This document shows positions 779 through 46,735 of a stretch of DNA of 46,735 nt, in pieces. How positions within the stretch are numbered: the first letter of the stretch is position 1; each line of letters begins with the position of its first letter. The notes beneath the pieces were generated by a model. It was given only the letters and a program-made list of their open reading frames with translations, had not been told where the DNA came from and searched no databases. Source of the stretch: a virus; IMG/VR virus record IMGVR_UViG_3300028197_000026, positions 1 to 46,735 of that record; one strand, given 5' to 3'. The position numbers and the translations under genes are program-made.

Positions 779-783
779 ATGTT
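760..783 (-). terminator. Possible weak intrinsic terminator after gp55
   Basis: On the minus strand a perfect inverted repeat (AACATTT, loop GAC, AAATGTT; forward 767-783) is followed by G and six T (765-760). It overlaps the gp55 stop codon. The stem is only 7 bp and AT-rich, so it would be weak. It also contains the TTGACA of the gp47 promoter, so it may be a coincidence of that box. Confidence 0.3.
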
Positions 784-1618
784 ATTTGTCCGATGTTTTT
801 GTTGCCTTATTATGATCTGCAACCTGCTTTTCCCATTGACCTTGATTCTGTCTAGTAAAGGAAGGATTCATATGATTCATTTCTAATATGTCATCACGAA
901 TATTTTGATTACGTTTTTCAATGTTAATGATTCTAACAAATGAATTCGTTACCGCCGCAGTATAGTATGCAAATGGATTGTTTGACTTTGACTCATCAAA
1001 CTGTAATCCAATCTGTGTTAACTGTAATATAGCTTGACCTTTCATTTCGTCATTGTATGTGTATCCTCTTACGTTACCTCTTGTTGCATAACGTTCACAC
1101 AGTTTCATCCACATCAAAGCTAATTTATTGGTTGCTTGACCATGTACCTTACTAAAGTTACCATTGTCCATACCACCTTCCCAGTGACTTTTACCTACAA
1201 CCTTTGCCTCACCGTTTTCATCATGTTTATAATGTACAAATGGTGGAAAGTTTAGTTTAGTTTTAGTATCAGCAATAGTCTTAGGATTCTTCTTACGTCC
1301 TTTTTCTTCTGGAATGTGATCATATGTCATTACACGGAAGATAAGCTCTTCTTTAGTAATCTTTTTATAGTCTATGGCACATTCTGCCTGTTTAACCTTT
1401 TCGCCTAAACCTTTTCTTCGCTCGTATTCAGCTAATCCAAGTCTTTTGGCCTTATTTCTCTTTGCTTCTGCTATTGTTCTAATATTGATCTTGTCTACAC
1501 TAGGCAAAATAATATCAAACATAGCATGATCGTCGTCTGTATAACTACAAAACGTGCTTTTTGATTTATGTATTTCTTTTAAAATGTCTCTATTGTTAAG
1601 ATAATTCACTCTTTTCAT
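782..1618 (-). CDS. gp55: Late-transcription sigma factor gp55
   Basis: This 278-residue protein resembles the gp55 late sigma factors of marine T4-like phages. The conserved block is in the C-terminal half: ILQLTQIGLQFDESKSNNPF, then YYTAAVTNSF and NIEKRNQNIRDDILEMN, a region-2-like segment that binds core RNA polymerase and recognises the TATAAATA late -10 box. T4 gp55 is 185 residues; the extra length here is N-terminal and lysine-rich. A TTG at 1633 is in frame, but I chose ATG at 1616-1618 because GGAG lies 9 nt upstream of it and the TTG would consume that site. A near-consensus sigma-70 promoter precedes it. Its presence agrees with the TAAATA boxes found across the window. Confidence 0.9.
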   Translation of the reverse strand: MKRVNYLNNRDILKEIHKSKSTFCSYTDDDHAMFDIILPSVDKINIRTIAEAKRNKAKRLGLAEYERRKGLGEKVKQAECAIDYKKITKEELIFRVMTYDHIPEEKGRKKNPKTIADTKTKLNFPPFVHYKHDENGEAKVVGKSHWEGGMDNGNFSKVHGQATNKLALMWMKLCERYATRGNVRGYTYNDEMKGQAILQLTQIGLQFDESKSNNPFAYYTAAVTNSFVRIINIEKRNQNIRDDILEMNHMNPSFTRQNQGQWEKQVADHNKATKTSDK

Positions 1619-1650
1619 ATTTGTTTTCTCCAAACCTTAAATATAGTACT

Positions 1651-7152: not shown

Positions 7153-7584
7153 ATGGCAGACTTATACAAAAAAATCACAGTACCAGCAGGTGAAAGAAAC
7201 AAAGCAGTTACATCAAATCGCTCTTACAAAGGTATCAGTACGGTTAATCCAAACAATAATAGTCCTACTTTGTTCGATCTGTCTCTTATTAAGCAAGATT
7301 TAATAAATCACTTCCACATTAAGCAAGGTGAGAAGCTGATGAATCCAGAATTTGGCACAATTATATGGGATGCCATATACGAGCCGTTAACAGAAGATAT
7401 GAAAGAAGCAATAGCGAAGAACGTTTCAGACGTTGTAAACAGCGATCCTCGTGTAGTTGCTAACAAAATAGAGATAGATTCGTACGAAAGCGGAATTATA
7501 ATTGACGTAGATTTAATGTTTTTGCCCTATAATATATCAGAAAAACTAAGGCTTACATTTGATGAGGAATCTGCACAGTTTTAA
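7153..7584 (+). CDS. gp25: Baseplate wedge protein gp25
   Basis: This 143-residue protein has the gp25 / W-family signature of contractile tails. DLSLIKQDLINHFHIKQGEK (about residues 37-56) is followed by MNPEFGTIIWD (about 60-70) and EPLTEDMKEAI, and the last strands are IIIDVDLMFLPYN. In the baseplate, gp25 forms the core bundle with gp6 and links the wedge to the sheath. Its size matches T4 gp25 (132). No ribosome binding site is obvious: only a TAGG 12 nt upstream of the ATG. The late promoter box directly ahead suggests a leaderless transcript is possible. It is followed by 47 nt and then gp6. Confidence 0.93.
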   Translation: MADLYKKITVPAGERNKAVTSNRSYKGISTVNPNNNSPTLFDLSLIKQDLINHFHIKQGEKLMNPEFGTIIWDAIYEPLTEDMKEAIAKNVSDVVNSDPRVVANKIEIDSYESGIIIDVDLMFLPYNISEKLRLTFDEESAQF

Positions 7585-7631: not shown

Positions 7632-10600
7632 ATGTCATCAACAAATAGACAAAACAGATTATTGTTAGCTGAAGATTGGAAAAAGGTCTATCAGTCATTT
7701 AGAAACGCAGAGTTCAAATCTTACGATTTTGATAACTTGCGTAGAACAATGATTAATTATCTGCGTCAAAACTACCCAGAAGATTTTAACGATTACATTG
7801 AATCAAGTGAATACCTTGCATTAATTGATCTTATTGCGTTCCTAGGACAAAACCTTGCATTTAGAGTTGACATGAATGCTAGAGAAAACTTCTTAGAATT
7901 AGCAGAACGTAGAGAGTCTATCTTACGTCTAGCACGTTTGCTGTCTTACAATCCTAAAAGAAATCAAACAGCAAATGGATTACTTAAATTTGAAAGTGTT
8001 GCTACATCAGAGTCTGTTGTAGATTCCAACGGAACTAACCTAGCAAGCCAAACAATTTTATGGAATGATCCGTCAAACTCAAACTGGAGAGAACAGTTTG
8101 AAAAAGTACTTAATGCGGCACTACCAACAAACAGTATTGTAGGGAAGCCAATTAAGAAAAGTGTAGTTGAAGGAGTTCCAACGTTCCAATACAGATTTGA
8201 TGCAAACAATACAGACGTTCCTGTTTATACTTTTAGTAAAAACGTTGACGGAAAGAATATGCAGTTTCAAATTACATCAACAGATGTTAACAATGGTATT
8301 ATTTCAGAAGAAGCACCATTACCTGGAAACAGTTTAGGATTTTTATACAGAGATGATGGTAGAGGTCCAGGATCAACTAACACAGGATATTTTTCACACT
8401 TTAGACAAGGTGTGCTAGACACTGGTACATTTAATGTACAGAGTCCAAGTACTAATCAAACAATTGGCCTCGAAGCAACAAACATTAACAACACAGACGT
8501 TTGGCTTTATAAGTTAAACTCAATTGGTGCTGAAGATGAAGCATGGGCAAAAGTTGATTCACTAGAAGGTAACAACATTGTTTATAACAGCTTAAGAAAA
8601 AGTGTTAGAAACATTTATAGTGTTTTAAGTAAAACACAAGATAAGGTAGACTTAATCTTTAGTGATGGAACATTTGGTAACTTACCGCAAGGAAACTTTA
8701 GAGTTTACTACAGAACAAGTATCAATGATAGATACAATATTGTTCCTGCAGATTTAGTTGCTATCAGTATTGTAGTACCATACACTTCTAAAGCTGGTAA
8801 TCCAGAAAACTTAACACTTTCATTGGAGTTAAAATATACTGTAGACAATGCAACTACCAGTGAGTCAAATGCAAGTATTAGAGAAAATGCTCCAAGTACT
8901 TACTATACACAGAATAGAATGGTTACTGGTGAAGACTACCAAGTTAGTCCACTAGGCATCAGTCAAGAAATTATTAAAGTAAAAAGTGTAAACAGAACAA
9001 GTAGTGGTATTTCAAGATACTACGATTTATTAGATGCTACAGGAAAGTATTCAAGTACTAACTTGTACGGTGCTGATGGTATTGTTTACAAAGATGATTT
9101 TACAGAAAAGAATTCATTTAACTTTACAACTAAAACAGATGTACAAGGAGTTATTGCAAATACTATAACACCTATTCTAAGTCAAAAGCAAATGTTAAAT
9201 TACTATTTGACAAACTTTCCAAAGACACTAGTTGCTGACTTAGGTGCTAAATGGGAAAGCACAACTACATCAACAAATATTTCAACAGGTTCATTTAAAG
9301 ATAGCCAGGATACTACTTTACAAGTAGGATCTTTTACAAGTAGTGCGTTAAAATTTATTGAAGCAGGAACGTTATTAAAATTTACTGCTCCAACAGGATT
9401 TCACTTTATGGCAGACAACAGTCATAAACTTATGGCTGGCACCACAAACCATCCTAATGCAATTACTTACAAATGGGTTAAGGTTGTAAGTGTAACTGGC
9501 GATGGTAGAACTAACAATGCAGATGGAACAGGACCTATAATATTTAATGATATAATTCCTTCAACAGCAATTCTTTCAGAACTAAGACCAAAATTTGGAA
9601 AAACATTATTATCAGATGTGCAAACACAGATAACAGATCAAATTTTTGCATATAAAACATTTGGATTAAGATATGATGTTAACCTAAGACAATGGCGCAT
9701 GATTACTGAAAATAATTTAGATATTACAAGTAACTTTAGCACAGGTAAAACAGGCGATGTTACAGATCAACAACTAGATGCAAGTTGGTTACTATTGTTT
9801 GAAACTGATGGTGAAAAATATACAATTACTTCAAGAGCACAAAGATTTATTTTTGAAAGTGATGAAGAAATACGTTTTTACTATGACAGTACAAGTAAGA
9901 TATTTGACAATAGAACAGGACAAATTATTAAAGATAAGATTAGTGTGTTAAACATTAATAAAAAACCTGACAGCAATGATCCGTTTACAATAGACTACCC
10001 ATTTGAAGTTTCTAAAGAGTACAGAGATGGTGATGGTTATATTGATAGTAAAAAGATTGAAGTAAGTTTTTATGATTCAGACAGCGATGGTGTTGTAGAT
10101 GATCCAGAAACTTTTAACACTCTTGTTGCTGAAACAGTTAATCCATTAACAAAGTATACATTCCAAAAGAAATATACTACAAGTGACGGAATTGAAGATT
10201 TTAAATATATTAATAACAGCACAAACACAGTTGTAGTAAAACAGAGCGAAAGTTTTGTTGGTGCTCTAAGTCAGTATACAGACGGGCAAGTATTTTACCT
10301 AGTTACAGAAGAAGTATTTAAAACATACAGCTCAACATCTAAATCACTTGTATTAACAACAGATTATAAAGCATACGTAGGTAGAGATAAACTTAAATTC
10401 CATTACGTACATTCAGCAGACGATGACAGCAGAATTGATCCAAGTTCAAGTAATATTGTTGACACTTATTTGTTAACAAGAACTTATGACACAAACTTTA
10501 GAAAATACTTAGACGGTGTAGTTGACAATAAACCTTTACCACCAAGTAGTGATAACCTGTTTAACAACTATGGTTCAGAAATTAATAAAGTAAAATCTAT

Positions 10601-11159
10601 TAGTGATGATGTAATTTATCATCCAGTAAAATACAAAATATTATTTGGTGCTAAAGCTGAAGCTAGAGTCCAAGCAACAATTAAGGTTGTAAAGAATCCA
10701 GGTAGAGTTGTTAATGATAACGACATCAAAGCAAGAGTAATTACAGCAATGAATGAATACTTTGCTTTAGAAAATTGGGATTTTGGTGATACTTTTCACT
10801 TCTCAGAGATGGCCACGTATATTATGAACAACGTTGCACCTGATCTAGTAAACATTGTAATTGTTCCTAAACAAGACTCACAAGCATTTGGAAGTTTAAT
10901 GGAAATTAATTCCGAGTCAGATGAGATCTTTATTAGTGGAGCAACAGTTGACGATGTAGCAATTATCGATGCACTTACGGCTAGTAAGTTAAAAGCATCA
11001 GGTAATGTTGTTACAAGCACAGTAGGGTCAACAACTGGAGTATCAAGTGGATCTAGTTATTCAAATGCATCAGTACAAAGTTCAAGTAGTTCAAGTAGCT
11101 CAAGTAGTTCGAGCAGTTCAAGTTCAGGCAGTAGTGGTAGCTCTGGGAGTGGTTATTAA
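7632..11159 (+). CDS. gp6: Baseplate wedge protein gp6, expanded
   Basis: gp6 forms the inner ring of the baseplate with gp25, gp53 and gp7. The N-terminal ~120 residues are characteristic: FKSYDFDNLRRTMINYLRQN, then SSEYLALIDLIAFLGQNLAF, RVDMNARENFLELAERRESI and LARLLSYNP. Near residues 405-460 the pattern YYTQNRMVTGEDYQVSPLG is a further wedge/J-type protein signature. The final ~180 residues (ARVQATIKVVKNPGRVVND, MNEYFALENWDFGDTFHFSE) resemble the gp6/J C-terminal dimer domain. At 1175 residues it is nearly twice T4 gp6 (660); the excess lies in the middle and in a serine-only C-terminal tail encoded by 9-nt repeats. It overlaps the next gene by one base. Confidence 0.9.
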   Translation: MSSTNRQNRLLLAEDWKKVYQSFRNAEFKSYDFDNLRRTMINYLRQNYPEDFNDYIESSEYLALIDLIAFLGQNLAFRVDMNARENFLELAERRESILRLARLLSYNPKRNQTANGLLKFESVATSESVVDSNGTNLASQTILWNDPSNSNWREQFEKVLNAALPTNSIVGKPIKKSVVEGVPTFQYRFDANNTDVPVYTFSKNVDGKNMQFQITSTDVNNGIISEEAPLPGNSLGFLYRDDGRGPGSTNTGYFSHFRQGVLDTGTFNVQSPSTNQTIGLEATNINNTDVWLYKLNSIGAEDEAWAKVDSLEGNNIVYNSLRKSVRNIYSVLSKTQDKVDLIFSDGTFGNLPQGNFRVYYRTSINDRYNIVPADLVAISIVVPYTSKAGNPENLTLSLELKYTVDNATTSESNASIRENAPSTYYTQNRMVTGEDYQVSPLGISQEIIKVKSVNRTSSGISRYYDLLDATGKYSSTNLYGADGIVYKDDFTEKNSFNFTTKTDVQGVIANTITPILSQKQMLNYYLTNFPKTLVADLGAKWESTTTSTNISTGSFKDSQDTTLQVGSFTSSALKFIEAGTLLKFTAPTGFHFMADNSHKLMAGTTNHPNAITYKWVKVVSVTGDGRTNNADGTGPIIFNDIIPSTAILSELRPKFGKTLLSDVQTQITDQIFAYKTFGLRYDVNLRQWRMITENNLDITSNFSTGKTGDVTDQQLDASWLLLFETDGEKYTITSRAQRFIFESDEEIRFYYDSTSKIFDNRTGQIIKDKISVLNINKKPDSNDPFTIDYPFEVSKEYRDGDGYIDSKKIEVSFYDSDSDGVVDDPETFNTLVAETVNPLTKYTFQKKYTTSDGIEDFKYINNSTNTVVVKQSESFVGALSQYTDGQVFYLVTEEVFKTYSSTSKSLVLTTDYKAYVGRDKLKFHYVHSADDDSRIDPSSSNIVDTYLLTRTYDTNFRKYLDGVVDNKPLPPSSDNLFNNYGSEINKVKSISDDVIYHPVKYKILFGAKAEARVQATIKVVKNPGRVVNDNDIKARVITAMNEYFALENWDFGDTFHFSEMATYIMNNVAPDLVNIVIVPKQDSQAFGSLMEINSESDEIFISGATVDDVAIIDALTASKLKASGNVVTSTVGSTTGVSSGSSYSNASVQSSSSSSSSSSSSSSSSGSSGSSGSGY
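11079..11150 (+). repeat. 9-nt tandem repeats encoding a poly-Ser tail of gp6
   Basis: Eight in-frame 9-nt units start with AGTTCAAGT at 11079; the first five are nearly identical and the last three drift to Gly/Ser codons. They encode about 15 serines and then SGSSGSSGSGY at the C-terminus. Slippage-prone DNA like this can change length between relatives. Confidence 0.8.
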
Positions 11160-32813: not shown

Positions 32814-32814
32814 T

Positions 32815-33171
32815 ATGGATGAACGTTTACAAAAAGCTCTAGATTTTTCCAATTACATGGTGACGCTTAATAATCAAAAGCGAATCCTAAAAGAGAAGTT
32901 TTTGGAAAGCAGAGTACACTATTTTAACGGTGGACAATTTTCAGTAACACAGGAACTATTAACGTTCTGTGGTATGCTTGTTGAAAAAGATGACACAAAA
33001 AATATCGTTATAATTGACGATAATGATACCCCCATTAGAATAGCAGACTTAGAAGAGTTTCTTGACGATATTTTAAATATCTATTTTACATCAGCAAATG
33101 AATATCATACCGAATACGAAAAAATAAGAACCAAACGTAAGGTATCGGGACTTGTTGAGCATGAAGAGTAA
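32815..33171 (+). CDS. Small conserved T4-like phage protein, unknown function
   Basis: A 118-residue acidic protein: KALDFSNYMVTLNNQKRILK, YFNGGQFSVTQELLTF, IIDDNDTPIRIADLEEFLDD. It resembles small proteins that follow the structural genes in marine T4-like phages; I do not know a function. The sequence is predicted mostly helical with a central beta hairpin. It starts the segment that leads into the glycosyltransferase operon, with AGGAG 6 nt before the ATG. It overlaps the next gene by 11 nt. Confidence 0.7.
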   Translation: MDERLQKALDFSNYMVTLNNQKRILKEKFLESRVHYFNGGQFSVTQELLTFCGMLVEKDDTKNIVIIDDNDTPIRIADLEEFLDDILNIYFTSANEYHTEYEKIRTKRKVSGLVEHEE

Positions 33172-34009: not shown

Positions 34010-34835
34010 AGGCTTTGTATTAATAGCACAAAACAGCGAATACGATTACGTACAGCAGGCGTGTGCGTTGGCTATGAGTATTAGAGCTACTAATGAAGCT
34101 AACATCTGTTTAATAACCAACGATAAAGTGCCATCTAGGTATGAAAAGTTGTTTGATGTTATCAAACCTATACCATGGACTGATGATGCTAAGGATAATG
34201 AATGGAAGGTAGACAATCGTTGGAAGTTATACCATGCAAGTCCGTATGATGAGACCATTGTACTTGATACAGATATGTTAGTACTACAAAATTTAGACAG
34301 TTGGTGGAAACTTTTGTCTAATTACGAAGTATTCTATACCTCCAATGTATATACTTATAGGGGTGAACGTGTAGATGACCATTATTATAGAAAAGTTTTT
34401 AGAGCAAACAATTTACCTAACGTGTACTGTGGATTTCACTACTTTAAAAAGTGCGACTTTGCAAAAGAGTTTTATTCAATGCTAGAAGTTGTTATGAATA
34501 ACTGGCAATTATTCTATGGAAAGTTTGCTAAAGAACAATATCAAAAATTTTTAAGTGTAGATACTAGCACAGCTATTGTAACAAAGATATTAGACTGTGA
34601 AGATAAGATTACAAACAAACGTGTTAAGTTTCCAACGTTTACACATATGAAACCTCATATACAAGGTTGGAAAAACAGTAGTGCTACTTGGCGTAGCAGA
34701 GTAGGTGCATACCTTACAGATGATTTAACACTTAAGATAGGTAATCATTTACAAACAGGAATATTTCATTACACAGAAAAAGACTTTCTAGATGATGATA
34801 AAATTAGTAAGTACGAGAATTATTTAAAAATATGA
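34002..34835 (+). CDS. GT-A glycosyltransferase-like protein (paralog B)
   Basis: A 277-residue paralog of the preceding gene. The first strand is KGFVLIAQNSEYDYVQQACA; the DXD-type motif is in ETIVLDTDMLVLQNLDSWWK at about residue 84. A later FHYFKKCDFAKEFYSMLEVV and THMKPHIQGW match the layout of GT8-like enzymes (metal/donor-binding His near the end). AGGA lies 8 nt before the ATG, inside the previous gene. It shares a 4-nt ATGA overlap with the next gene. It probably transfers a sugar from a nucleotide-sugar in the cytoplasm; acceptor unknown. Confidence 0.75.
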   Translation: MSKGFVLIAQNSEYDYVQQACALAMSIRATNEANICLITNDKVPSRYEKLFDVIKPIPWTDDAKDNEWKVDNRWKLYHASPYDETIVLDTDMLVLQNLDSWWKLLSNYEVFYTSNVYTYRGERVDDHYYRKVFRANNLPNVYCGFHYFKKCDFAKEFYSMLEVVMNNWQLFYGKFAKEQYQKFLSVDTSTAIVTKILDCEDKITNKRVKFPTFTHMKPHIQGWKNSSATWRSRVGAYLTDDLTLKIGNHLQTGIFHYTEKDFLDDDKISKYENYLKI

Positions 34836-36057: not shown

Positions 36058-36928
36058 TATTGCAGAACAGGATATCATATTTTTAAGTTATGATGAGCCT
36101 AATGCAGAAAAGAATTATGTTGATCTAGTTAATAAAGTGCCGTGGGCAAAACGTGTACATGGCGTAGATGGGTCAGATGCGGCACACAAAGCCTGTGCAG
36201 AATTATCAGATACAAAACACTTTGTTACAGTAGACGGTGATACAATAATTGATCAGAAGTTTTTAGATGTAGTTCTTGATCTAGATGAATTAGGTGTAGA
36301 TGATGACTACCAATTTAGTTGGTGTGGTAATATTGATATCAACGGATTGAAGTATGGTAACGGAAGTTTAAAGATGTGGACTAAAGACTTTGTTGCCAAT
36401 ATGAAAACACACGAAAACACCGATGGTTCAGATGATACACAGATAGAGTTTTGTTACTTTGACAACTATTATCAACTTAATCAAAACTACTCAACAAGTA
36501 TTATTAGTTCAACTCCACATCAAGCCTGGAGAGCAGGATTTAGAGAAGGTGTTAAGATGTCACTAAACAGAGGTGCAAAGGTACAAGACCTTGCAAACAA
36601 CACTTGGTGGCAAAATTATCATAGACTGCTTGTCTGGTTGAATGTTGGTGCAGATGTTGATAACGGATTGTATGCTGTTATGGGTGCAAGAGACGGTTGT
36701 CAAAAGATCTTAGCAACCGATTGGGATCATTCTGTAACAAGAGATTTTAAATGGCTTAATGAATACTGGAATGAAATTAAAGACTATCCTGTAGAACAAA
36801 TGATTGCTGAGTACGGACAAGTATTACAAGAGCAAGGCTTGCCTATAAGCAAGGTTGCACTAGATGAGGAGCAAAGTAAATTTTTTAAAGCTGTTTATGT
36901 AAACAGTGATAGAGTTTTAGGTAGGTAA
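36047..36928 (+). CDS. Glycosyltransferase-like protein, type 2 (paralog 1)
   Basis: A 293-residue protein: DIIFLSYDEPNAEKNYVDLV, then AKRVHGVDGSDAAHKACAEL, then HFVTVDGDTIID near residues 58-70, where DGD resembles the DXD motif of GT-A transferases. It is clearly paralogous to the 42508-43203 gene (FISYNEPDAN, AKRVHGVKGIHNAH, VIDGDAD). Both also share a later AWRAGFRE/TWKSAFRE motif (F.E.VK.S). AAGGA lies 6 nt before the ATG. It overlaps the radical SAM gene by one base, and the same pairing recurs at 42.5 kb. Function and acceptor are inferred only. Confidence 0.65.
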   Translation: MKINIAEQDIIFLSYDEPNAEKNYVDLVNKVPWAKRVHGVDGSDAAHKACAELSDTKHFVTVDGDTIIDQKFLDVVLDLDELGVDDDYQFSWCGNIDINGLKYGNGSLKMWTKDFVANMKTHENTDGSDDTQIEFCYFDNYYQLNQNYSTSIISSTPHQAWRAGFREGVKMSLNRGAKVQDLANNTWWQNYHRLLVWLNVGADVDNGLYAVMGARDGCQKILATDWDHSVTRDFKWLNEYWNEIKDYPVEQMIAEYGQVLQEQGLPISKVALDEEQSKFFKAVYVNSDRVLGR

Positions 36929-38307
36929 TGAGCGAACTAGAAAAAATTAAAGAACTAATGCCAAAGATCGAGGAGCAAACATCTCCTACGTTCTGCCTAG
37001 CTAAATGGCATCACACTACAATATATCTTGCAACAGGCGAAACACATAGTTGTTATCATCCTGCTCCACACCCTATACCATTAGAAGAACTAAAAGATAA
37101 TCCTAGTGCGTTACACAACACCATAGAGAAGAAAGACCAACGTAAGAAAATGTTATGTGGCGAAAAGCCAGATGGGTGTAGTTACTGCTGGAAGATTGAA
37201 GCTATGGGTAAAGACTTTGTAAGTGATAGGCATATTAAAACAACAAGTATCTATAATGAAGAAAGACTAGCGGAAATAAAACAAAATGGGGCGGATTTAA
37301 ACGTAAATCCTGAATACATAGAAATAAGTTTTAGTAACGAGTGTAACTTTAAGTGTGGCTATTGTCACCCTAAAGCATCAAGTAGATATTACAATGAAAT
37401 AAAAGAACACGGTCCATACAGTATGTCTAGCAAACATAGACAAGATATTGATTGGTTTAAAATTTATAAAAAGGAAGAAGAAAATCCTTATGTAAAAGCA
37501 TGGTGGGAATGGTGGCCTGAAGTAAGTAAAACATTAAATATTTTACGTATCACAGGCGGAGAGCCTTTAATGCACAAAAGTTTATGGGAACTATTTGACA
37601 AACTAGAAGCAGATCCAAAGCCAAACATACAGATAGAAGTTAATACCAATATGGGTGTTAAGCCTAAGCTAGTTGAAAAGTTAACAGAAACAGTATTACG
37701 TCTAAAAGAAAAAAACTGTATTAAGAGTTTTAAATTATATACAAGTATAGATAATTGGGGACCTAAAGCAGAGTACATTCGTACTGGATTAGATTTGAAA
37801 ATATGGGAAAAGAATTTAGATTACTTTCTAAGTAACACTCCTTTCTCTGTTATTTTTATGATTACATTTAACATTTTTAGTGTAACAGGATTTGATTCGT
37901 TGTTAGAAAAGATATTAGAATGGCGTCACAAGTATAATGGAATAGTTGAGCCTCAAGTAAGATGGCAGAAAGTACAATTTGATACTCCGCATTTGAAAGA
38001 ACCTCATATGTATGACATGAACATACTACCTAAGAAAGAGTTTATGCCTTACATGGAAAAGCATTTACAATTTATGCATGACTACCAAGACGACAGAGAC
38101 AGAACTAAATTTAGTAATCTAGAAGTAGAAAAGTTTAGGCGTGTAGTAGAATATATGCGTACGACAAAAATGGATCCTGCACAAAAGGATCTTGCACGTA
38201 GAGATTTTTATCGATGGTTTACTGAACACGATAAACGTAGGAATTGTAATTTAGTTGAAACTTTCCCTGAACTAGAAAAATTTTATAACGATTATTCTAG
38301 CGAATAA
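36928..38307 (+). CDS. Radical SAM enzyme with N-terminal cysteine (twitch/SPASM-like) domain
   Basis: A 459-residue protein. The radical SAM cluster motif is CNFKCGYC (C139, C143, C146), followed by the ITGGEPL motif near residue 210 that contacts S-adenosylmethionine. The N-terminal ~90 residues contain cysteines at TFCLAKW, HSCYHP and LCGEKPDGCSYC, an auxiliary iron-sulfur (twitch-like) arrangement placed before, not after, the barrel, as in the phage twitch-domain radical SAM family. The reaction is not predictable; such enzymes act on peptides, sugars or tRNA. It starts one base inside the previous stop and ends 11 nt inside the minus-strand SGNH gene's end (tail-to-tail). Confidence 0.85.
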   Translation: MSELEKIKELMPKIEEQTSPTFCLAKWHHTTIYLATGETHSCYHPAPHPIPLEELKDNPSALHNTIEKKDQRKKMLCGEKPDGCSYCWKIEAMGKDFVSDRHIKTTSIYNEERLAEIKQNGADLNVNPEYIEISFSNECNFKCGYCHPKASSRYYNEIKEHGPYSMSSKHRQDIDWFKIYKKEEENPYVKAWWEWWPEVSKTLNILRITGGEPLMHKSLWELFDKLEADPKPNIQIEVNTNMGVKPKLVEKLTETVLRLKEKNCIKSFKLYTSIDNWGPKAEYIRTGLDLKIWEKNLDYFLSNTPFSVIFMITFNIFSVTGFDSLLEKILEWRHKYNGIVEPQVRWQKVQFDTPHLKEPHMYDMNILPKKEFMPYMEKHLQFMHDYQDDRDRTKFSNLEVEKFRRVVEYMRTTKMDPAQKDLARRDFYRWFTEHDKRRNCNLVETFPELEKFYNDYSSE

Positions 38308-39190: not shown

Positions 39191-40481
39191 TTGCTATTTG
39201 ACTCATTTTTTCTGCTGTTTGTAAAAACACATACTTACTATACTTACCTTCTAATAGTGTCTTGAAGTTTCTAGTTAGGACTCGCTCATTTTTAAACTTC
39301 CAAAGCACTTGATCCTCTAAACGCATTTCTCTAATACTTCTAATTTGTTTTCTAACTTCGCTCCACAAAGCAGTCCATCTTCTTGCTGGATCCTTTATGC
39401 TATCAAAACTCATGTCAAACCAATCTTCATAAGTTGTGTACCCGTAGTCTGCTAACTTTTTATTACAGTCTACTTGCCCCCATATAACAAACGGTTGCAT
39501 ATGGTATATACTTCTAAAAGTTTTTTCACTATAAAATAAACTAGTACCACCCCAATCATCGACGTGTGTTTCGTTTACTATTTGAAATAAAGTTTTGTCA
39601 TGCAACCCACTGTTTAATGATTCTGCATGATTAGTTTTAAAGTCTGTGGTATCTACTACAAGAGGAGTTTTTGCCATAAACTGTTGTAGCTGTTTTACTT
39701 TGATACCAGGGTTAGTATTAAAAGGAACTTGGGATAGATAATGGTTTAAGTCTCTATCTTTAATTTGATTATGGCTAATAAAGAAGTCGTGTCTGTTATC
39801 ACTATTAACTATATCCATTGTACTATAAACTCTAGCAGGTCTATTTACTCTACTTAAACTTAACCCACATCTACTAGCTTTAGGATCTTGATAAAGCTGT
39901 CTAGTTCTTGCTATAGTTGTGTCTAACCTTTTACGCACAATAGCATCAATGGTAGAAGTATCTTCTATATGATATCTTGTATTATCCATTTGAACTTCTG
40001 TTTGGCCTTGCACTCCTAGTATCATTCGTTCAAAGTTTAGGTAAGTAAAAACGTTAATTGAATTTTTAATATTGTTTTCTCTATTGTATGTTTCAAGGTT
40101 TTCTTGATCACGCATATTACTAGAACAAAAGAATATCTTGTTAGCAGGTATTCCATAGTTTTTTACTACTTTATATAAAATAGTAAGAAATGGTGTACTG
40201 TCTGCAACAGGACTAAAGCCTTCGGTACTTGCATCAAATATAAAAAATGCATTAGGATTCTTGCGTAGTTGCTTTCTAGCTTTTGGTTTTATATATTGAA
40301 AGAAGTCACTCTTAGCTGTCCAAGGTGGGTATTGAATTAGCACAGGATATACATCTATATCCTTATGATTAATTTTTGAGTTTTCAAAAGCCTCATTTAA
40401 GCACACCATAGTTTGGGTGCTTTTAGGGGTATATACCCATTGGTTAAAACTTAAGAAGTCTTGAATAACATTCATTTTCAT
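39171..40481 (-). CDS. Glycosyltransferase-like protein (minus strand)
   Basis: A 436-residue protein. Near residues 317-335, LFYSEKTFRSIYHMQPFVIW, followed by LADYGYTTYEDWF..SFD.I.D..RR, is a pattern found in phage and bacterial glycosyltransferase-like proteins (the SEK...PF..G segment is also seen in GT10-like fucosyltransferases). The N-terminal half includes VYPVLIQYPPW and FFIFDASTEGFSP. No DXD motif stands out. The start is ATG at 40479-40481, with a second in-frame ATG two codons later. It is the first gene of a two-gene minus-strand cassette and has its own TATAAATA late promoter. Confidence 0.6.
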   Translation of the reverse strand: MKMNVIQDFLSFNQWVYTPKSTQTMVCLNEAFENSKINHKDIDVYPVLIQYPPWTAKSDFFQYIKPKARKQLRKNPNAFFIFDASTEGFSPVADSTPFLTILYKVVKNYGIPANKIFFCSSNMRDQENLETYNRENNIKNSINVFTYLNFERMILGVQGQTEVQMDNTRYHIEDTSTIDAIVRKRLDTTIARTRQLYQDPKASRCGLSLSRVNRPARVYSTMDIVNSDNRHDFFISHNQIKDRDLNHYLSQVPFNTNPGIKVKQLQQFMAKTPLVVDTTDFKTNHAESLNSGLHDKTLFQIVNETHVDDWGGTSLFYSEKTFRSIYHMQPFVIWGQVDCNKKLADYGYTTYEDWFDMSFDSIKDPARRWTALWSEVRKQIRSIREMRLEDQVLWKFKNERVLTRNFKTLLEGKYSKYVFLQTAEKMSQIANEQTTT

Positions 40482-40488
40482 ATAGATC

Positions 40489-40496
40489 CATAAATA
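40489..40496 (+). promoter_or_regulatory. Late promoter (CATAAATA) for the 40.5 kb operon
   Basis: CATAAATA on the plus strand; predicted start near 40502, with TAGGAG at 40525-40530 before the GTG at 40537. It faces the minus-strand late promoter at 40503-40510. Confidence 0.6.
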
Positions 40497-40508
40497 CTAC
40501 TGTATTTA
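40491..40508. repeat. Inverted repeat holding two opposing late promoters
   Basis: TAAATAC (40491-40497), TACT, GTATTTA (40502-40508) is a perfect 7-bp inverted repeat. Each arm is the core of a late -10 box, one per strand. Confidence 0.7.
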
Positions 40509-40510
40509 TA
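40503..40510 (-). promoter_or_regulatory. Late promoter (TATAAATA, perfect) for the minus-strand cassette
   Basis: The forward TATTTATA reads TATAAATA on the minus strand, an exact match to the T4 late consensus. Predicted start near 40497, leaving a 16-nt leader with GGAT before the ATG at 40481. Confidence 0.7.
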
Positions 40511-40536
40511 TACGCATTTAATGGTAGGAGATTAGT

Positions 40537-41658
40537 GTGAAGATTAGTTTTATCGGTTTGGGTAAATTAGGTTTACCTTGTGCAGAAGCTATTGCAACAA
40601 AAGGCCATACAGTTAGCGGATACGATGTTGTAGACGTAAAAAGCAAAACAGTTAATGTAAAAGATAGTATTGCAGAAGCAGTAGTGGGACAAGATATTGT
40701 GTTCATTGCAGTACCAACTCCGCACGATCCTGCGTATGATGGCAGAGCTCCTACGGCTCATTTAGAACCAAAAGATTTTAGTTACAATATTGTAAAAGAA
40801 TGTTTAGAAGAAGCAAACAAGTATATGAACAAAGATCAATTACTTGTTCTTATTAGTACTGTACTTCCTGGAACAACACGTAGAGAATTTGTACCATTAG
40901 TACCCAACACACGTTTTGTATATAATCCTTACTTAATTGCTATGGGTACAGTAGCCTGGGATATGATAAATCCAGAAATGGTTATGATTGGAACTGAAGA
41001 TGGTTCACTAACAGGTGATGCAAAACAACTTAAAGAATTTTACGAATCTTGCATGGAAAATAATCCACGTTATGAAATAGGTACCTGGGACGAGTGTGAA
41101 TGTATAAAAGTTTTTTATAATACATTTATTAGTACTAAAATTGGACTTGTTAATATGATGCAGGACGTAGCACAGAAGCAAGGAAATATAAATGTTGATG
41201 TAGTTACCAAAGCACTTGCAGATTCAACAATGCGTATTATTAGTAAGGCGTACATGAAAGCAGGAATGGGCGACGGTGGTGCTTGTCACCCACGTGATAA
41301 TATTGCATTACGTTATATGGCCAAGGAACTTGGTCTAGGTTATGATATATTTGATGCTGTAATGAATGCTCGTGAAATACAAGCTGAAAATATGGCTATT
41401 GAAATATTAAAGCACGGACAACGTATTCAGTTCAGTAGCGACAGTTACAAGCCAGGCGTTGATTATGTTGACGGTAGTTACAGTTTGCTAGTTCAACATT
41501 ATGTAAAAAAACACGGTGGCTTTATAGTTAATGACAAAGCTACTGTATGGGTAAGAGTACATGAAGAAGATAATAATCCACCACAGGGTATAACAGTATT
41601 TGATCCATGGAGATCTTTTAAAGGAGATACTGTAGTACATTACGGAAACACAAGATGA
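40537..41658 (+). CDS. Nucleotide-sugar dehydrogenase (UDP-glucose/GDP-mannose DH family)
   Basis: A 373-residue protein. The N-terminal Rossmann motif is FIGLGKLGLP (GxGxxG), followed by IVFIAVPTPHDP and VLISTVLPGTT, as in family members that oxidise the C6 of UDP-glucose, UDP-ManNAc or GDP-mannose to a uronic acid. The catalytic-cysteine motif is GGACHPRD with C250 (usual form GGxCxPKD), and the central-domain region around residue 191 (ECIKVFYNTFIS) matches the conserved E.K...N motif. It is shorter than the usual 400-450 residues, and the C-terminal substrate domain is altered. The start is GTG, supported by TAGGAG 6 nt upstream. It leads an operon with ATGA overlap to the next gene. The sugar used cannot be told. 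Confidence 0.85.
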   Translation: MKISFIGLGKLGLPCAEAIATKGHTVSGYDVVDVKSKTVNVKDSIAEAVVGQDIVFIAVPTPHDPAYDGRAPTAHLEPKDFSYNIVKECLEEANKYMNKDQLLVLISTVLPGTTRREFVPLVPNTRFVYNPYLIAMGTVAWDMINPEMVMIGTEDGSLTGDAKQLKEFYESCMENNPRYEIGTWDECECIKVFYNTFISTKIGLVNMMQDVAQKQGNINVDVVTKALADSTMRIISKAYMKAGMGDGGACHPRDNIALRYMAKELGLGYDIFDAVMNAREIQAENMAIEILKHGQRIQFSSDSYKPGVDYVDGSYSLLVQHYVKKHGGFIVNDKATVWVRVHEEDNNPPQGITVFDPWRSFKGDTVVHYGNTR

Positions 41659-42515
41659 GTAAAATATTAATAGTAGGTGATAGCAACGGTCTAGGAGAAT
41701 GGGGTACACTTATTCCAGGACCAGCAGTTGCCAATCCTGATAACCCAGAAGTGTTTAGACCTTATAACGATGAATTATATATTGAAGGCGACCATGCTAA
41801 ACCTTTTAACGTAGTTTGGCCAGGGTTTGGGTACTATCTAGATTTAAAAGGTCATGCTACTGTAAACTACAGCATCGGTGGCGGATGTAACAGTGAGTCG
41901 TTATTTAAAGTTGAAGAAGCATTAGGACTTGCTCCACCTTTCACTAGTCCTGTATTTTATAACCCAGATGTTATAGTATGGATAGTAACAGAGCCTATTA
42001 GAGATTTACAACCACCACGTTGGCCAGCAGAAGCAGGGCTTAAAGATTTAGAAAAGTATTTTATACAACGTGATAAAATTGTAGCAAACGCAACTAGCAT
42101 TGATGATATGAATTCACAACTTATAAAGATGTGTTTAGATAATGCACAACAAATTTATAATGAAACTAAAGTACCTTGGATTATTGTAGAAGGTTGGGGC
42201 AAACTTACACAAGATTTATCACAGTATAGTTTTATCAAACACGTTCATCGCAACTGGATGGATAAAATATTAGGTCATGAAATACCTCTTATGAGTAGTT
42301 GGCCTACAGTAAACTTATTAAGACGTGCTAGACCAGACTTGGTAGATGTAAGTGCAGTAGTAAAAGATGGCCCGGAAACATATTTTAAAAGTATAGTTGA
42401 TGCATACGAAAAAACTATAGAAACAATGAAGGCAAGTAAACACTTTCCTGATAACTGCCACCCAGATAGAAATATTCACAAGGAGTTGGCACAAGAGCTA
42501 GAACAATATGTATGA
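41655..42515 (+). CDS. SGNH hydrolase-like protein
   Basis: A 286-residue protein with KILIVGDSNGLGEW (GDS block I), NYSIGGGCNSES (block III Asn), and NCHPDRNIH near the end (block V His). It is likely an esterase or acyltransferase-type SGNH enzyme acting on acylated sugars or lipids. It overlaps the dehydrogenase by 4 nt and the following glycosyltransferase-like gene by 8 nt, indicating one transcription unit. A sister SGNH protein lies on the minus strand at 38.3 kb. No signal peptide is visible, so it probably acts in the cytoplasm. Confidence 0.75.
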   Translation: MSKILIVGDSNGLGEWGTLIPGPAVANPDNPEVFRPYNDELYIEGDHAKPFNVVWPGFGYYLDLKGHATVNYSIGGGCNSESLFKVEEALGLAPPFTSPVFYNPDVIVWIVTEPIRDLQPPRWPAEAGLKDLEKYFIQRDKIVANATSIDDMNSQLIKMCLDNAQQIYNETKVPWIIVEGWGKLTQDLSQYSFIKHVHRNWMDKILGHEIPLMSSWPTVNLLRRARPDLVDVSAVVKDGPETYFKSIVDAYEKTIETMKASKHFPDNCHPDRNIHKELAQELEQYV

Positions 42516-43203
42516 TATAGTATTCATAAGTTATAACGAGCCCGATGCAAACATCAGGTATCAAAAATTATGTGAACGTTATCCTAATGCTAAAAGGGTA
42601 CACGGAGTCAAAGGAATACATAATGCTCATATTGCCGCGGCAAAAAAATGTTCAACTAAAATGTTCTGGGTCATTGACGGTGACGCAGATTTATTACCCG
42701 AATTCAATTTAGATCATATAGTCAACGACTATGATTTAGATTGTGTCCACGTGTGGCGTAGCGAAAATCCTATAAACGAACTAATCTACGGTTATGGTGG
42801 TGTTAAACTCCTACCAAGAAGACTTACTATAAACGTAGATACTAGTACCCCGGATATGACCACAAGTATATCTAAAGGATTTAAAGCTATGCCTCATGTG
42901 AGTAACATCACTAGATTTAATACAGACCCATTCAATACTTGGAAGAGTGCGTTTAGAGAATGTGTTAAGTTATCAAGTAGAACTATTAAAGGACAAGTAG
43001 ATGAAGAAACAGAAAAACGACTTATCACTTGGTGTTCAAAAGGAGAAGAAAAAGAATTCGGATCATTTTGCGTACGAGGTGCTAGGAGCGGCAGTGACTT
43101 TGGTATTGTTAATCGCGATAATATCAGTAATCTAAAACTAATTAATGACTTTGATTGGTTAGAACAGCGTTTTGCTATGGAGGAAAGTCTTGATACCGTT
43201 TGA
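42508..43203 (+). CDS. Glycosyltransferase-like protein, type 2 (paralog 2)
   Basis: A 231-residue paralog of 36047-36928: DIVFISYNEPDANIRYQKLC, AKRVHGVKGIHNAHIAAAKK and VIDGDADLLPEF (DGD near residues 58-60), then PFNTWKSAFRECVKLS and FCVRGARSG, matching GAR(D/S)G in the other copy. It is shorter than paralog 1, which has an inserted loop and a C-terminal extension. It has no clear Shine-Dalgarno and depends on an 8-nt overlap with the preceding gene. Its end overlaps the next radical SAM gene by 14 nt, repeating the pairing at 36 kb. Confidence 0.65.
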   Translation: MYDIVFISYNEPDANIRYQKLCERYPNAKRVHGVKGIHNAHIAAAKKCSTKMFWVIDGDADLLPEFNLDHIVNDYDLDCVHVWRSENPINELIYGYGGVKLLPRRLTINVDTSTPDMTTSISKGFKAMPHVSNITRFNTDPFNTWKSAFRECVKLSSRTIKGQVDEETEKRLITWCSKGEEKEFGSFCVRGARSGSDFGIVNRDNISNLKLINDFDWLEQRFAMEESLDTV

Positions 43204-44152
43204 TAAAATAGTAAAACTTGGGCATAAGAACTTATTGAATACTAAACTGTTCACAGTTAGTTGGATACTTGGTCGTTTCTGTAACTATGAATGTAGTTAC
43301 TGTTGGCCGTATGCAAGAAGTAAAACAGTTGACCACAGACAGTTTGAAGTGTACACTAACGCAATAGACGAGATCAAAAAACAAGCAAAAGCAAACGGCT
43401 TTGATCAATTTCATTTTAGTTTTAGCGGTGGAGAACCTACTGCATACAAAAAGTTAGTTGATCTAATTAAGTACTACGAAGATTATGAAAGCGAATATTT
43501 AAGTATACACATGACAAGTAATTGCAGTCCTGCAAAGACTTGGTGGAAACGTTGGCTTGACGCAACGGAACTAATGGACAGAAGAAGTATTACAGCAAGT
43601 TACCATGCAGAGTTTGCCAACGAACAAGACTTTGGAGATAAACTTTTATATCTTCAAGATGAAGGAGTACTTGTAACTATCAATCAAGTTATGGTACCAG
43701 AGCTATGGGAAGAATATTATGAAAGAAGTAAAAGATTTAGTAATAGAGGCTTACACGTCACTCTTAAACCGCAAAGTGACCCAACTGCGTCATATGTGGT
43801 CGGTGGTTACACAGAAGAACAAAAAACAATACTTCAATACGAAAACCAGCAAGACTACGAACCGCAAATCATACTCAAAGATGATGAAGGAGTAAAGCAT
43901 TATGTTGATCAAGCAGAAAGATTAAATGCATTTGGTTTCAATAAGTTTAAAGGTTGGAACTGTAACGCAGGATATCAAAGCTGTATTATACGAGAACCAG
44001 GCGGAGAAGTAAAACGTGCATATAGTTGTCATGATGAACCTTTAGGCACGTTACAAGACGGATTTGAGCTGTTTAAAGCACCAATGCCGTGCATAACTCC
44101 AACGTGTGTTAGTAGTGCAGACAGTAAGATACCAAAGGAAAAGAATGTATAA
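43190..44152 (+). CDS. Radical SAM/SPASM-type enzyme
   Basis: A 320-residue protein with the radical SAM motif CNYECSYC (C31, C35, C38) and FSFSGGEPTAYK near residue 83. The C-terminal part has several further cysteines (GWNCNAGYQSC, AYSCHDEPLGTL, PCITPTC), as in SPASM auxiliary-cluster domains. I chose TTG at 43190: GGAGG (43179-43183) lies exactly 6 nt upstream. A longer frame from a TTG at 43172 would begin before that site. It overlaps the upstream gene by 14 nt and the next radical SAM gene by 8 nt. Substrate unknown; many such enzymes act on peptides or sugars. Confidence 0.85.
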   Translation: MIPFDKIVKLGHKNLLNTKLFTVSWILGRFCNYECSYCWPYARSKTVDHRQFEVYTNAIDEIKKQAKANGFDQFHFSFSGGEPTAYKKLVDLIKYYEDYESEYLSIHMTSNCSPAKTWWKRWLDATELMDRRSITASYHAEFANEQDFGDKLLYLQDEGVLVTINQVMVPELWEEYYERSKRFSNRGLHVTLKPQSDPTASYVVGGYTEEQKTILQYENQQDYEPQIILKDDEGVKHYVDQAERLNAFGFNKFKGWNCNAGYQSCIIREPGGEVKRAYSCHDEPLGTLQDGFELFKAPMPCITPTCVSSADSKIPKEKNV

Positions 44153-45140
44153 GTTAGAAGACATAAAGTCTATACATTTAGAAGTTACTACTAAATGTCA
44201 AGCAAAGTGTCCTATGTGTGCAAGACGCATTAACGGAGGACCTCTACTTGATGGATTAGTGCTAGATGAAATTACTGAAGAAAAATTTAAAAAATGGTTC
44301 AGTATAGATTTTATAAAACAACTATGGCATCTTAATATGTGTGGTAATCTAGGAGATCCTATTATTGCAAAGGATACGTTAGAAATATATCAGTACCTAA
44401 GAAGATATAACAAAACTATGGGACTAACAATGCATACTAACGGAAGTGGTCGTGTAGCACAATGGTGGAGAGACCTTGCAAAGGTAGATGTAGTATCAGC
44501 TTTTGCTCTTGACGGGTTAGAAGATACCCATGCAAGATACAGGGTAAACACAAACTGGAATAAAATTATAGAAAATGCACAAACTTTTATAGAAGCTGGT
44601 GGTAATGCACGTTGGGATATGATTGTATTTCAGCACAATGAACATCAGATTGAAGATTGCCGTGCGTTATCTAAAAAATTAGGATTCAAAGAGTTTCAAG
44701 TTAAGCACACTACACGTTTTAGAGATGGCAAGTTTGATGTTGTTGATGAAAACTATAACAAAGTTGATACTCTTTATCCTTCAAAGAAAAGTTTAGAAAT
44801 GATTGAACCTATGGAAAAAGCTAGAGAAGAAAAGCTACCAAAGATAACTTGTAAAGCAGTAGAAGATCATATGCTATATGTTAGTGCATATGGAAACGTA
44901 TCTCCTTGCTGTTGGTTAGATTTAAAATGGGTACCTCAAATACACCCAAGTAGAATAGACTACATGATAAAGGTTGGAAGGTATCCTAACTTACATGATG
45001 AAAGTTTAGAAGATGTATTCAATAGTGGATATTTTACTAAAATTAGTAACTGTTGGAATACAACAGGATTAAAAGAGTGTTCGAAACAATGTGGAAGTTT
45101 TGATAAACTCAATGAACAGTTTGTGGAGAGAGGACAATGA
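44145..45140 (+). CDS. Second radical SAM/SPASM-type enzyme
   Basis: A 331-residue protein. The cluster motif is CQAKCPMC (C18, C22, C25), with CGNLGDPIIAKD as the GGEP-equivalent. It has a C-terminal SPASM-like end: ITCKAVEDHMLYVSAYGNVS, CCWLDLKW, then CWN....ECSKQCG. I chose ATG at 44145 because AAGGAA lies just upstream and the protein starts cleanly with MYKLEDIKSIHLEVTTKC; a longer in-frame start at 44106 adds an arginine-rich tail with no ribosome site. It shares 8 nt with the preceding gene and 4 nt (ATGA) with the next. Confidence 0.87.
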   Translation: MYKLEDIKSIHLEVTTKCQAKCPMCARRINGGPLLDGLVLDEITEEKFKKWFSIDFIKQLWHLNMCGNLGDPIIAKDTLEIYQYLRRYNKTMGLTMHTNGSGRVAQWWRDLAKVDVVSAFALDGLEDTHARYRVNTNWNKIIENAQTFIEAGGNARWDMIVFQHNEHQIEDCRALSKKLGFKEFQVKHTTRFRDGKFDVVDENYNKVDTLYPSKKSLEMIEPMEKAREEKLPKITCKAVEDHMLYVSAYGNVSPCCWLDLKWVPQIHPSRIDYMIKVGRYPNLHDESLEDVFNSGYFTKISNCWNTTGLKECSKQCGSFDKLNEQFVERGQ

Positions 45141-45898
45141 AGTTAATAATTGCAGGCCATGGATATGTAGGTAAAGCATATCACGAGATACTAAAAGGTA
45201 GCTATGATATAGTAGTGCATGATCCAAAGCAAGGATATGATGCAGTAATAGGTGGAGACATCCACGGTATAATTTGCTGTGTTTCTACTCCTGAACTACC
45301 TAATGGAAATTGTGATTCGTCAAACGTACTTGACATATTAGAAATTGCAGATAAACTAGAAGTTCCGGTACTTATTAAAAGCACAATAGACTTACAATGT
45401 TGGAACATTATTAAAGAAGAATATAGTGATGTACAAGTAACATTTAGTCCAGAGTTTTTACGTGCCAAAACAGCTCTTGAAGACCTGCGTAATACAGAAC
45501 ATTTTATGTTAGCAGGAGGAGATACTAATCGTTGGGCTAGTGTGCTTATAGAAGCACTAGGTAAGATTACTATTGGTGTTGACTGTAGTCCTGAAGAATT
45601 AATTATGATTAAATACTTTAGAAATAGTTTTTTAGCAAACAAAGTTGCGTTCTTTAACCAAATGCACGACCTATGTGAAGCGGCCGATATTAACTATGAT
45701 GCAGTTGCAGTAGGTGTAGGTGCAGATAGACGTATAGGTACAAGTCATACAGAAGTTACAAAACAAAGAGGTTATGGAGGACATTGTTTTCCAAAGGATA
45801 TAAAAGCAATAATTAATACTGCAAAAAAGTATGAAGTTAATTTAAGCATACTTGAAGAAGTACAAAGTTATAATAAAGATATAAGAAATGAAGATTGA
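45137..45898 (+). CDS. Short UDP-glucose dehydrogenase-like protein
   Basis: A 253-residue protein: LIIAGHGYVGKAYHEIL (GxGxxG Rossmann motif), VSTPELP, VLIKSTI, VTFSPEFLRAKTALEDL (conserved NPEFL-type motif), and GYGGHCFPKD near residue 212-221 with the catalytic Cys. It resembles UDP-glucose/ManNAc dehydrogenases but is about 150 residues shorter: it ends soon after the cysteine motif and lacks the C-terminal UDP-sugar-binding domain. Short phage versions of this kind exist, so it is probably not a broken gene. The first dehydrogenase in this operon (40.5 kb) is a distant relative. AGAGG precedes the ATG by 4 nt. Confidence 0.85.
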   Translation: MKLIIAGHGYVGKAYHEILKGSYDIVVHDPKQGYDAVIGGDIHGIICCVSTPELPNGNCDSSNVLDILEIADKLEVPVLIKSTIDLQCWNIIKEEYSDVQVTFSPEFLRAKTALEDLRNTEHFMLAGGDTNRWASVLIEALGKITIGVDCSPEELIMIKYFRNSFLANKVAFFNQMHDLCEAADINYDAVAVGVGADRRIGTSHTEVTKQRGYGGHCFPKDIKAIINTAKKYEVNLSILEEVQSYNKDIRNED

Positions 45899-46493
45899 TA
45901 TAGACGATATAAAATTCTGGATGGACGCAATTCGTAACAGCGAGGATCGTGATCGCACACTTGAAAGCTTCTGGGGAGGACAGCTTAAAAGTAAGTTGTG
46001 GTTAATTGAATTTCTTGAAAAGCATAAGGCAGTTAGAAATGCAGAGTGCGTAATACATGGTGGATGGAATGGCGTGTTGGCTAGTATGATATTCAATAGT
46101 GAACTAGGAATGAAACATATTACAAGTATTGACATAGATCCTAAGTGCAAAGAAATTGCCAGTACAATGAACAAGCGTCAAGAGATAGACGGATTGTTTA
46201 CAAGTGTAACTGCGGATATGTGTGATTACGAATACGAGAGAGAACCTTATTTTGTTATCAATACAAGTTGTGAACACATAACACAAGAGCAGTATGAAAA
46301 GTGGTTAGACAAAATTCCTCATGGAGCACAAATTGTTTTACAAAGTAATAATTACTTTGAACATGAAGAACACGTAAACTGTATGAAAAGTCTATCAGAA
46401 TTTAAACGCAAATCTAAACTAGACGTATCAGAAGAAGCAGAACTAGAGCTACCTAAATACACAAGGTATATGCTAATAGGGAGAAAACGATGA
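45888..46493 (+). CDS. SAM-dependent class I methyltransferase-like protein
   Basis: A 201-residue protein with a Rossmann-fold methyltransferase layout: CVIHGGWNGVLASMIF (motif I-like; GGWNG in place of GxGxG), then ITSIDIDPKCKEIA (acidic end of strand 2), TADMCDY, and VINTSCEHITQEQYEKW. The SCEH and Gly-rich loop pattern is like that of phage methyltransferases found near glycosyltransferases. Acceptor unknown. It starts 11 nt inside the dehydrogenase and ends with an ATGA overlap with hemC. No strong Shine-Dalgarno. Confidence 0.7.
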   Translation: MKIDIDDIKFWMDAIRNSEDRDRTLESFWGGQLKSKLWLIEFLEKHKAVRNAECVIHGGWNGVLASMIFNSELGMKHITSIDIDPKCKEIASTMNKRQEIDGLFTSVTADMCDYEYEREPYFVINTSCEHITQEQYEKWLDKIPHGAQIVLQSNNYFEHEEHVNCMKSLSEFKRKSKLDVSEEAELELPKYTRYMLIGRKR

Positions 46494-46735
46494 AAGTAAG
46501 ATTAGGTTGTAGAGGTAGCGAACTATCGTTAGCTATGGCAGAACTAGTAACTAAAAAACTAGAACAGCTCGATTGTACTGTAGAAATAATTCCTATAAAG
46601 TCAGACGGTGATATCCATGAACATAAAGTTATTGCTGACATAGGAGGCAAAGGAGTATTTTGTAAACGTATAGAAGATGAATTGTTTAACGGAACTATTG
46701 ATATTGCAGTACACAGCACAAAAGACTTGCCAACT
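46490..46735 (+). CDS. hemC: Hydroxymethylbilane synthase (porphobilinogen deaminase) HemC, partial
   Basis: I translated this frame myself; it starts at ATG 46490 and is open to the right edge (82 residues). It matches the N-terminus of HemC: VRLGCRGSELSLAMAELV (usual IGTRGSxLALxQA), IIPIKSDGD (usual T.GD), GGKGVFCKRIEDELFNG (usual GGKGLFTKEIExALL), and IDIAVHSTKDLPT. The catalytic Asp84 of E. coli corresponds to D79 here, and the substrate-contact Arg11 and Ser13 to R8 and S10. HemC joins four porphobilinogens into hydroxymethylbilane in heme and related tetrapyrrole synthesis. AGGGAG lies 7 nt before the ATG. It is the last visible gene of the accessory operon, with a 4-nt overlap with the methyltransferase. 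The active-site Cys that holds the cofactor (E. coli C242) is beyond the window. Confidence 0.88.
   Translation, partial: MKVRLGCRGSELSLAMAELVTKKLEQLDCTVEIIPIKSDGDIHEHKVIADIGGKGVFCKRIEDELFNGTIDIAVHSTKDLPT

Follow-up and report, generated by a model that had tools for sequence, protein, structure and literature searches.

The virus contig analyzed here (the window, i.e., the entire IMG/VR record IMGVR_UViG_3300028197_000026, 46,735 b) ends within a phage hemC gene, which probably encodes a working hydroxymethylbilane synthase that would add capacity and keep protohaem synthesis going in the infected cell. Its product belongs to a virus-only clade of HemC proteins, and virus-branch HemCs in other marine phages adjoin up to four more haem-pathway genes. 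Phage tetrapyrrole genes have so far been discussed chiefly as cyanophage light-harvesting pigment genes or as the AlaS first step. The repeated company of a virus-only HemC with HemE, joined in one group by HemB, HemF, and AlaS, suggests a common need during marine phage infection, namely protohaem and hence respiration. It makes testable which pathway steps limit the infected cell, and raises the question why some of the enzymes are carried by phages when HemD and ferrochelatase have so far not been met in them.

The hemC Gene and Its Product

The frame starting with ATG at 46490 is open up to the contig end (82 aa). It matches the porphobilinogen deaminase domain PF01379 above the cut-off (E 8.9e-25) and the TIGR00212 hemC model with E 1.1e-22 and 80.5 bits, the latter below the cut-off of 164 bits for the sole reason that the frame is truncated. 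L002, another IMG/VR contig, matches window positions 39869–46735 without a difference (100% over 6,867 b), extends 948 b further, and carries the complete gene. An earlier note on this DNA had named the gene hemC from its first 82 residues and had advised reading past position 46735; the name holds, and the reading gives an intact 278-aa HemC with the dipyrromethane Cys229 in the motif DGDCHSAIG. No frameshift or premature stop was found in the full L002 frame, and a remnant or frameshifted gene is thus ruled out by the overlapping contig. The ribosome site, described in that note as good, is indeed a GGGAG close to the ATG (Table 1).

The L002 HemC scores 216 bits with PF01379 (cut-off 22.1) and 26.3 bits with PF03900 (cut-off 26), its C-terminal domain (PF03900) being short and barely at the Pfam cut-off. 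The near relatives L005 and L012 reach 263.7 and 270.3 bits, respectively, with the TIGR00212 hemC equivalog model (cut-off 164). These scores, together with the Foldseek match below, rule out a different protein family.

The residues singled out from the 5′ part of the gene, R8, S10, the GGKG lysine (K54), and D79, are all found, at the equivalents of E. coli R11, S13, K59, and D84. In E. coli numbering, 13 positions are invariant in the 52 distinct viral HemCs (R11, S13, K59, F62, K83, D84, S129, R131, R132, R149, N151, R155, and C242), including the dipyrromethane-carrying Cys (C242; 52/52). The 14th position checked, D46, has Asp in 45 of the sequences and Glu in the other seven. R176 is not retained in viral HemCs, and is variable in SAR11 HemCs too. 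All pairs within the window group have dN/dS of 0.08–0.28, well below 1, and hemC in this group is under purifying selection.

The AlphaFold2 model of a relative (L028; pLDDT 93.6) has a three-domain fold with E. coli porphobilinogen deaminase (1pda) as the best Foldseek match (TM 0.90, E 1.5e-31). Short HemCs of 246–258 aa, found in one group of relatives (group C below; e.g., L063:9998–10738), are missing most of domain 3 and retain every catalytic residue as well as the cofactor Cys. The short form is predicted to have the same enzyme fold (pLDDT 89.5, TM 0.89 to 1pda).

Table 1. Features of the window discussed in the text, with strand and supporting evidence.
Feature	Position	Strand	Evidence
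Late sigma factor, gp55-like	782..1633	-	47% to annotated T4-type late sigma factor of Pseudomonas phage MIJ3
Baseplate wedge gp25	7153..7584	+	PF04965, 4e-7
Baseplate wedge gp6-like	7632..11159	+	36% to Salicola phage SCTP-2; 35% to annotated baseplate wedge protein of Sinorhizobium phage Phosso
Empty hemE site, two genes overlapping by 4 nt	34832..34835	+	hemE lies between the two genes in G005, G006, G010, and G012
UDP-glucose/GDP-mannose dehydrogenase-like, start of overlapping chain ending in hemC	40537..41658	+	PF03721, PF00984
Radical SAM protein	43172..44152	+	PF04055, 1.9e-11
Radical SAM/SPASM protein	44145..45140	+	PF04055, PF13186
UDP-glucose/GDP-mannose dehydrogenase-like	45137..45898	+	PF00984, 1.2e-25
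Methyltransferase-like gene, 201 aa, 4-nt overlap with hemC (46490–46493)	45888..46493	+	Weak PF13649
Shine-Dalgarno-like GGGAG	46479..46483	+	Sequence; 6 nt 5′ of hemC ATG
hemC 5′ part, 82 codons of 278-aa hydroxymethylbilane synthase	46490..46735	+	PF01379 match; remainder on L002 (gene at L002:6622–7458)

The Phage and the hemC Neighborhood

The window encodes T4-type baseplate proteins along with a late sigma factor, which bears out the T4-like phage setting proposed before. The closest phages by the gp6-like protein are large T4-like ones (SCTP-2 and Phosso, 34–36%), and the late sigma factor and gp6 together give PA5oct, MIJ3, Phosso, and SCTP-2 as the nearest sequenced phages, none of them a cyanophage. 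The hallmark block of the window is also present in four related contigs (G002, G005, G010, and G012), and the major capsid protein of another related contig, G033, shares ~70% identity with its counterparts in Vibrio phage 2.275.O and Phosso and 67% with the PA5oct protein. The sigma factor, baseplate, and G033 capsid matches thus indicate a marine phage akin to known large T4-like phages, and not a cyanophage. Judged on the late sigma factor and gp6, it is distant from cultured pelagimyophages, and an HTVC008M-like pelagimyophage is ruled out by the relatives of these two proteins. Among the tail genes, a single frame encodes 4,906 aa (window 11159–25879); it has equal length in G005 and 5,082 aa in G033.

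The overlapping-gene setting noticed earlier is real, the chain running from 40537 through hemC and ending with a 4-base overlap between hemC and the gene upstream. The 201-aa product of this upstream gene scores 18.9 bits with PF13649, below the Pfam cut-off of 27. Its close relatives in G017, G033, G046, and G050 lie away from hemC, which in these contigs is found at another place. Adjacency of the two genes therefore looks positional, and a functional tie is probably absent; the copies without adjacent hemC speak against the methyltransferase as a HemC partner. The link with methyltransferase and sugar genes that the earlier note had drawn is accordingly not supported, and late expression, also suggested there, has the operon position as its sole point in favor. 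The late-promoter motif TATAAATA, the one promoter form scanned, was not found on the + strand of the window.

A third radical SAM gene (window 36928–38307) lies in the same variable region as the two listed in Table 1, and relatives hold more of them, including a 434–442 aa ‘twitch domain’ radical SAM gene directly 3′ of hemC (431 bits, cut-off 170). The window radical SAM genes were considered as HemN or AhbC/D and rejected, their best scores being far below every haem-model cut-off.

Viral Relatives and Their Genomic Contexts

Near relatives of the window HemC numbered 19 in the initial IMG/VR scan. A profile scan gave 183 relatives, the best 80 of which were kept, and these sort into four contexts. 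In group A, to which the window belongs, hemC lies between methyltransferase-like and radical SAM genes in a variable region downstream of tail genes, with the same neighbors in ~25 contigs of the window group. In group B, hemC is inside a haem operon. In group C (L057–L092), it lies behind gp46, in phages having sigma factor and tail genes in common with the window phage. In group D, it adjoins the capsid gene.

PHROGs contains no matching HemC family. Ten hemC matches in INPHARED (33–42% identity) were rejected because they look like bacterial DNA under phage names. Such records (OR851535.1, OR845321.1, OR844993.1, MT836327.1, CAKLQH020000023.1, and others) call for caution in surveys of phage metabolic genes. 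A DAHP/KDO8P-synthase-like gene (PF00793) is found in G005 (L094:10665–11438), and also in G006, G017, and G050, i.e., in phages of different groups.

Phylogeny of Viral HemC

The earlier note had called for a HemC tree with host and viral copies; the tree of bacterial and viral HemCs built here gives a single viral clade. In a tree of 52 distinct viral, 30 SAR11, and 40 other bacterial sequences, the clade is supported at 100/99, its stem measuring 0.57 changes per column. With 22 other alphaproteobacterial sequences added and the viral set cut to 23, support is again 100/99 and the stem 0.51. Viral HemCs are thus one clade outside the sampled SAR11, other alphaproteobacterial, and other bacterial HemCs. 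Since the bacterial sample consists chiefly of best matches and Alphaproteobacteria, the donor may have been a group outside it. Recent capture from SAR11 is not borne out, the viral HemCs not being nested in SAR11; a tree in which the window group is constrained with SAR11 gives a borderline result (log-likelihood lower by 37 units, p-AU 0.049). The cofactor motif of viral HemCs has a GDC form that also occurs in 17 of 30 SAR11 sequences and in one of 79 from other bacteria, which hints at an origin close to SAR11, a point on which the tree does not decide.

Haem-Pathway Partners

Partner genes were counted in 50 HemC contigs, including many fragments and a few that nearly duplicate others. 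HemE is present in 23 of the 50, HemB in 12, HemF as a strong match in 12, AlaS above the TIGR01821 cut-off in three (G017, G014, and G023), and haem oxygenase in one (G017). No HemD was found in any of the 50 contigs by a HEM4 search that was positive in 12 of 14 control genomes, and no ferrochelatase by a search positive in eight of the 14. A crude motif search for HemJ-type protoporphyrinogen oxidase gave nothing convincing.

The group B operon has the order hemF-hemC-hemE-hemB on one strand, with 4-nt overlaps at hemC/hemE and hemE/hemB. Its HemF is above the equivalog cut-off. Its HemE and HemB have hemE and porphobilinogen synthase as their best models with scores below the curated cut-offs, and align with solved enzymes over most of their length. 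The most complete set is in G017 (IMGVR_UViG_3300000101_000007, 107,186 b, covering L098–L103), where hemF-hemC-hemE-hemB, AlaS, haem oxygenase (PF01126), bilin reductase, and a fatty acid desaturase are present (loci 84655–88184, 95840–97045, and 53270–54506). The bilin reductase is of the ferredoxin-dependent type (PF05996, 7.4e-16) and adjoins the haem oxygenase. A GMP reductase/IMPDH-domain protein is also encoded; hemD and ferrochelatase were not found in these 107 kb.

Window-group HemE has ~32% identity to that of group B and is of a different lineage. It is encoded at one site, at 32433–33374 in G005 (L094:12433–13374), which is empty in the window (Table 1) and in G002, the phages being otherwise collinear. 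Because the site is filled in some relatives and empty in others, hemE comes and goes there, hemC being constant in the window group. No second haem gene was found in the 46.7 kb of the window phage. In group D (L299, L300, L301, and L307), hemE lies ~8 kb from hemC of the opposite strand.

One further candidate, a 373-aa aminotransferase two genes downstream of hemC in G005, was considered as a HemL-like (glutamate-1-semialdehyde) partner and rejected. BioA/ArgD-type models match it best, far below their cut-offs, and hemL is not among the best 25 listed.

Proposed Role and Alternative Explanations

In the proposed role, HemC would build its own dipyrromethane cofactor on Cys229 and join four porphobilinogens into hydroxymethylbilane via Asp79. 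The host HemD would carry the product on, in the window phage probably along with other host enzymes, and host protoporphyrinogen oxidase and ferrochelatase would complete the haem branch. The added capacity would sustain protohaem synthesis, and hence respiration, while host gene expression fails. From the sequences we infer catalytic activity, a rise in flux, and a gain in the form of haem (for respiration) rather than another tetrapyrrole. That HemE and HemF recur alongside HemC favors the haem branch over sirohaem or cobalamin, and the absence of HemD and ferrochelatase from the phages suggests that the host supplies them. As the window phage shows no second haem gene in its 46.7 kb and has an empty hemE site, HemC may be its sole haem enzyme, working on substrate from the host. 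A speculative reason for the choice of genes is that phages carry slow steps, such as those of HemC and HemE, and omit HemD, which is very fast.

The same enzyme could instead serve bilin synthesis, its porphyrin feeding a phage haem oxygenase and ferredoxin-dependent bilin reductase to give linear tetrapyrroles. The G017 product could also take this route, the two genes standing there with AlaS, HemB, HemC, HemE, and HemF, and valaS-hemO-pcyA cassettes are known (PMC11480375). The common pattern, however, is HemC with HemE and without HemO, and haem oxygenase is absent from the window as from all but one of the 50 contigs, although its absence is weak evidence as the contigs are fragments; bilins as the benefit are unlikely. 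Slightly less likely still is a supply of sirohaem or cobalamin, e.g., for a B12-dependent ribonucleotide reductase. Hydroxymethylbilane precedes all tetrapyrroles, and the window phage as seen has no hemE, which would fit such a use; but the relatives pair hemC with hemE and hemF, committing carbon to coproporphyrinogen and protoporphyrinogen, and the NrdA/NrdB-like genes of G017 read as class I-type, which is B12-independent.

A HemC serving no haem supply, such as a porphobilinogen drain or a binding protein, is improbable. HemC activity is a prediction, and some viral forms are short of most of domain 3, yet the catalytic residues and cofactor Cys are invariant, the short form is predicted to fold as porphobilinogen deaminase, and the partner enzymes belong to the same pathway both upstream and downstream. 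That the gene is an assembly artifact, host contamination, or a decaying pickup is the least credible explanation. Just 82 codons stand at the contig end of the window, but the 6,867 b shared with L002 contain no mismatch, the same neighbors recur in ~25 contigs, the reading frame is unbroken, and dN/dS stays well under 1; contig agreement, shared neighbors, and dN/dS refute this reading, and the first two rule out host contamination specifically.

Beyond the preferred role, haem supply by a working HemC, there is a wider picture for which the case is evenly balanced: an old virus-only HemC lineage, spread over several marine T4-like phage lineages and moved between genome sites, which in part anchors a phage-encoded haem pathway (AlaS, HemB, HemC, HemE, and HemF), the host being left with HemD, protoporphyrinogen oxidase, and ferrochelatase only. 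If so, these phages would themselves provide the greater part of porphyrin synthesis instead of strengthening individual steps.

Comparison with Known Systems

The window hemC is a phage tetrapyrrole gene, a class with known members. The virus-only HemC clade, the HemE pairing, and the four-gene operon (hemFCEB) are new in that they were not found described in the literature searched (subscription journals and preprints lying outside the search). The same literature contains one mention of a phage HemC (PMC7029224), in keeping with the earlier remark that a phage copy of the porphobilinogen-deaminase step is rarely described. There, a single sentence assigns coproporphyrinogen oxidase, porphobilinogen deaminase, and GMP reductase to the pelagimyophage PMP-MAVG-4 (‘deep ecotype’), with no mention of hemE, hemB, an operon, catalytic residues, or phylogeny. 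PMP-MAVG-4, compared by its published description, and G017 both have HemF, HemC, and GMP reductase(-domain) genes. Since G017 has this gene set, group B and PMP-MAVG-4 are probably related. The late sigma factor and baseplate gene place the window phage in another lineage than PMP-MAVG-4.

Phage AlaS, haem oxygenase, and PcyA have been described and tested, and valaS/hemO/pcyA cassettes cover the first pathway step and haem breakdown; the main text of that paper does not name hemB, hemC, hemE, or hemF (PMC11480375). The likeness to the present phages is in the tetrapyrrole genes of marine T4-like phages, AlaS being carried by G017, G014, and G023. Haem biosynthesis is listed among viral auxiliary functions in passages of PMC13184970 that leave the genes unnamed. 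The earlier comparison with cyanophage ho1, pcyA, and pebS is apt in that these are also phage-borne tetrapyrrole genes, and passed over hemE, hemB, hemF, and alaS, which are closer partners and occur in relatives. The cyanophage genes act after haem, on bilins, unlike HemC, whose step is at least four steps before haem.

Bacterial HemCs (TIGR00212; E. coli 1pda; SAR11) are like the viral ones in fold, domains, catalytic Asp, cofactor Cys, and arginines. Nearly all viral HemCs have 246–281 aa (one has 307 aa counted from the first possible start), as compared with 302 aa in SAR11 (L113) and 313 aa in E. coli, and they differ from bacterial HemCs in forming their own clade and in their reduced C-terminal domain.
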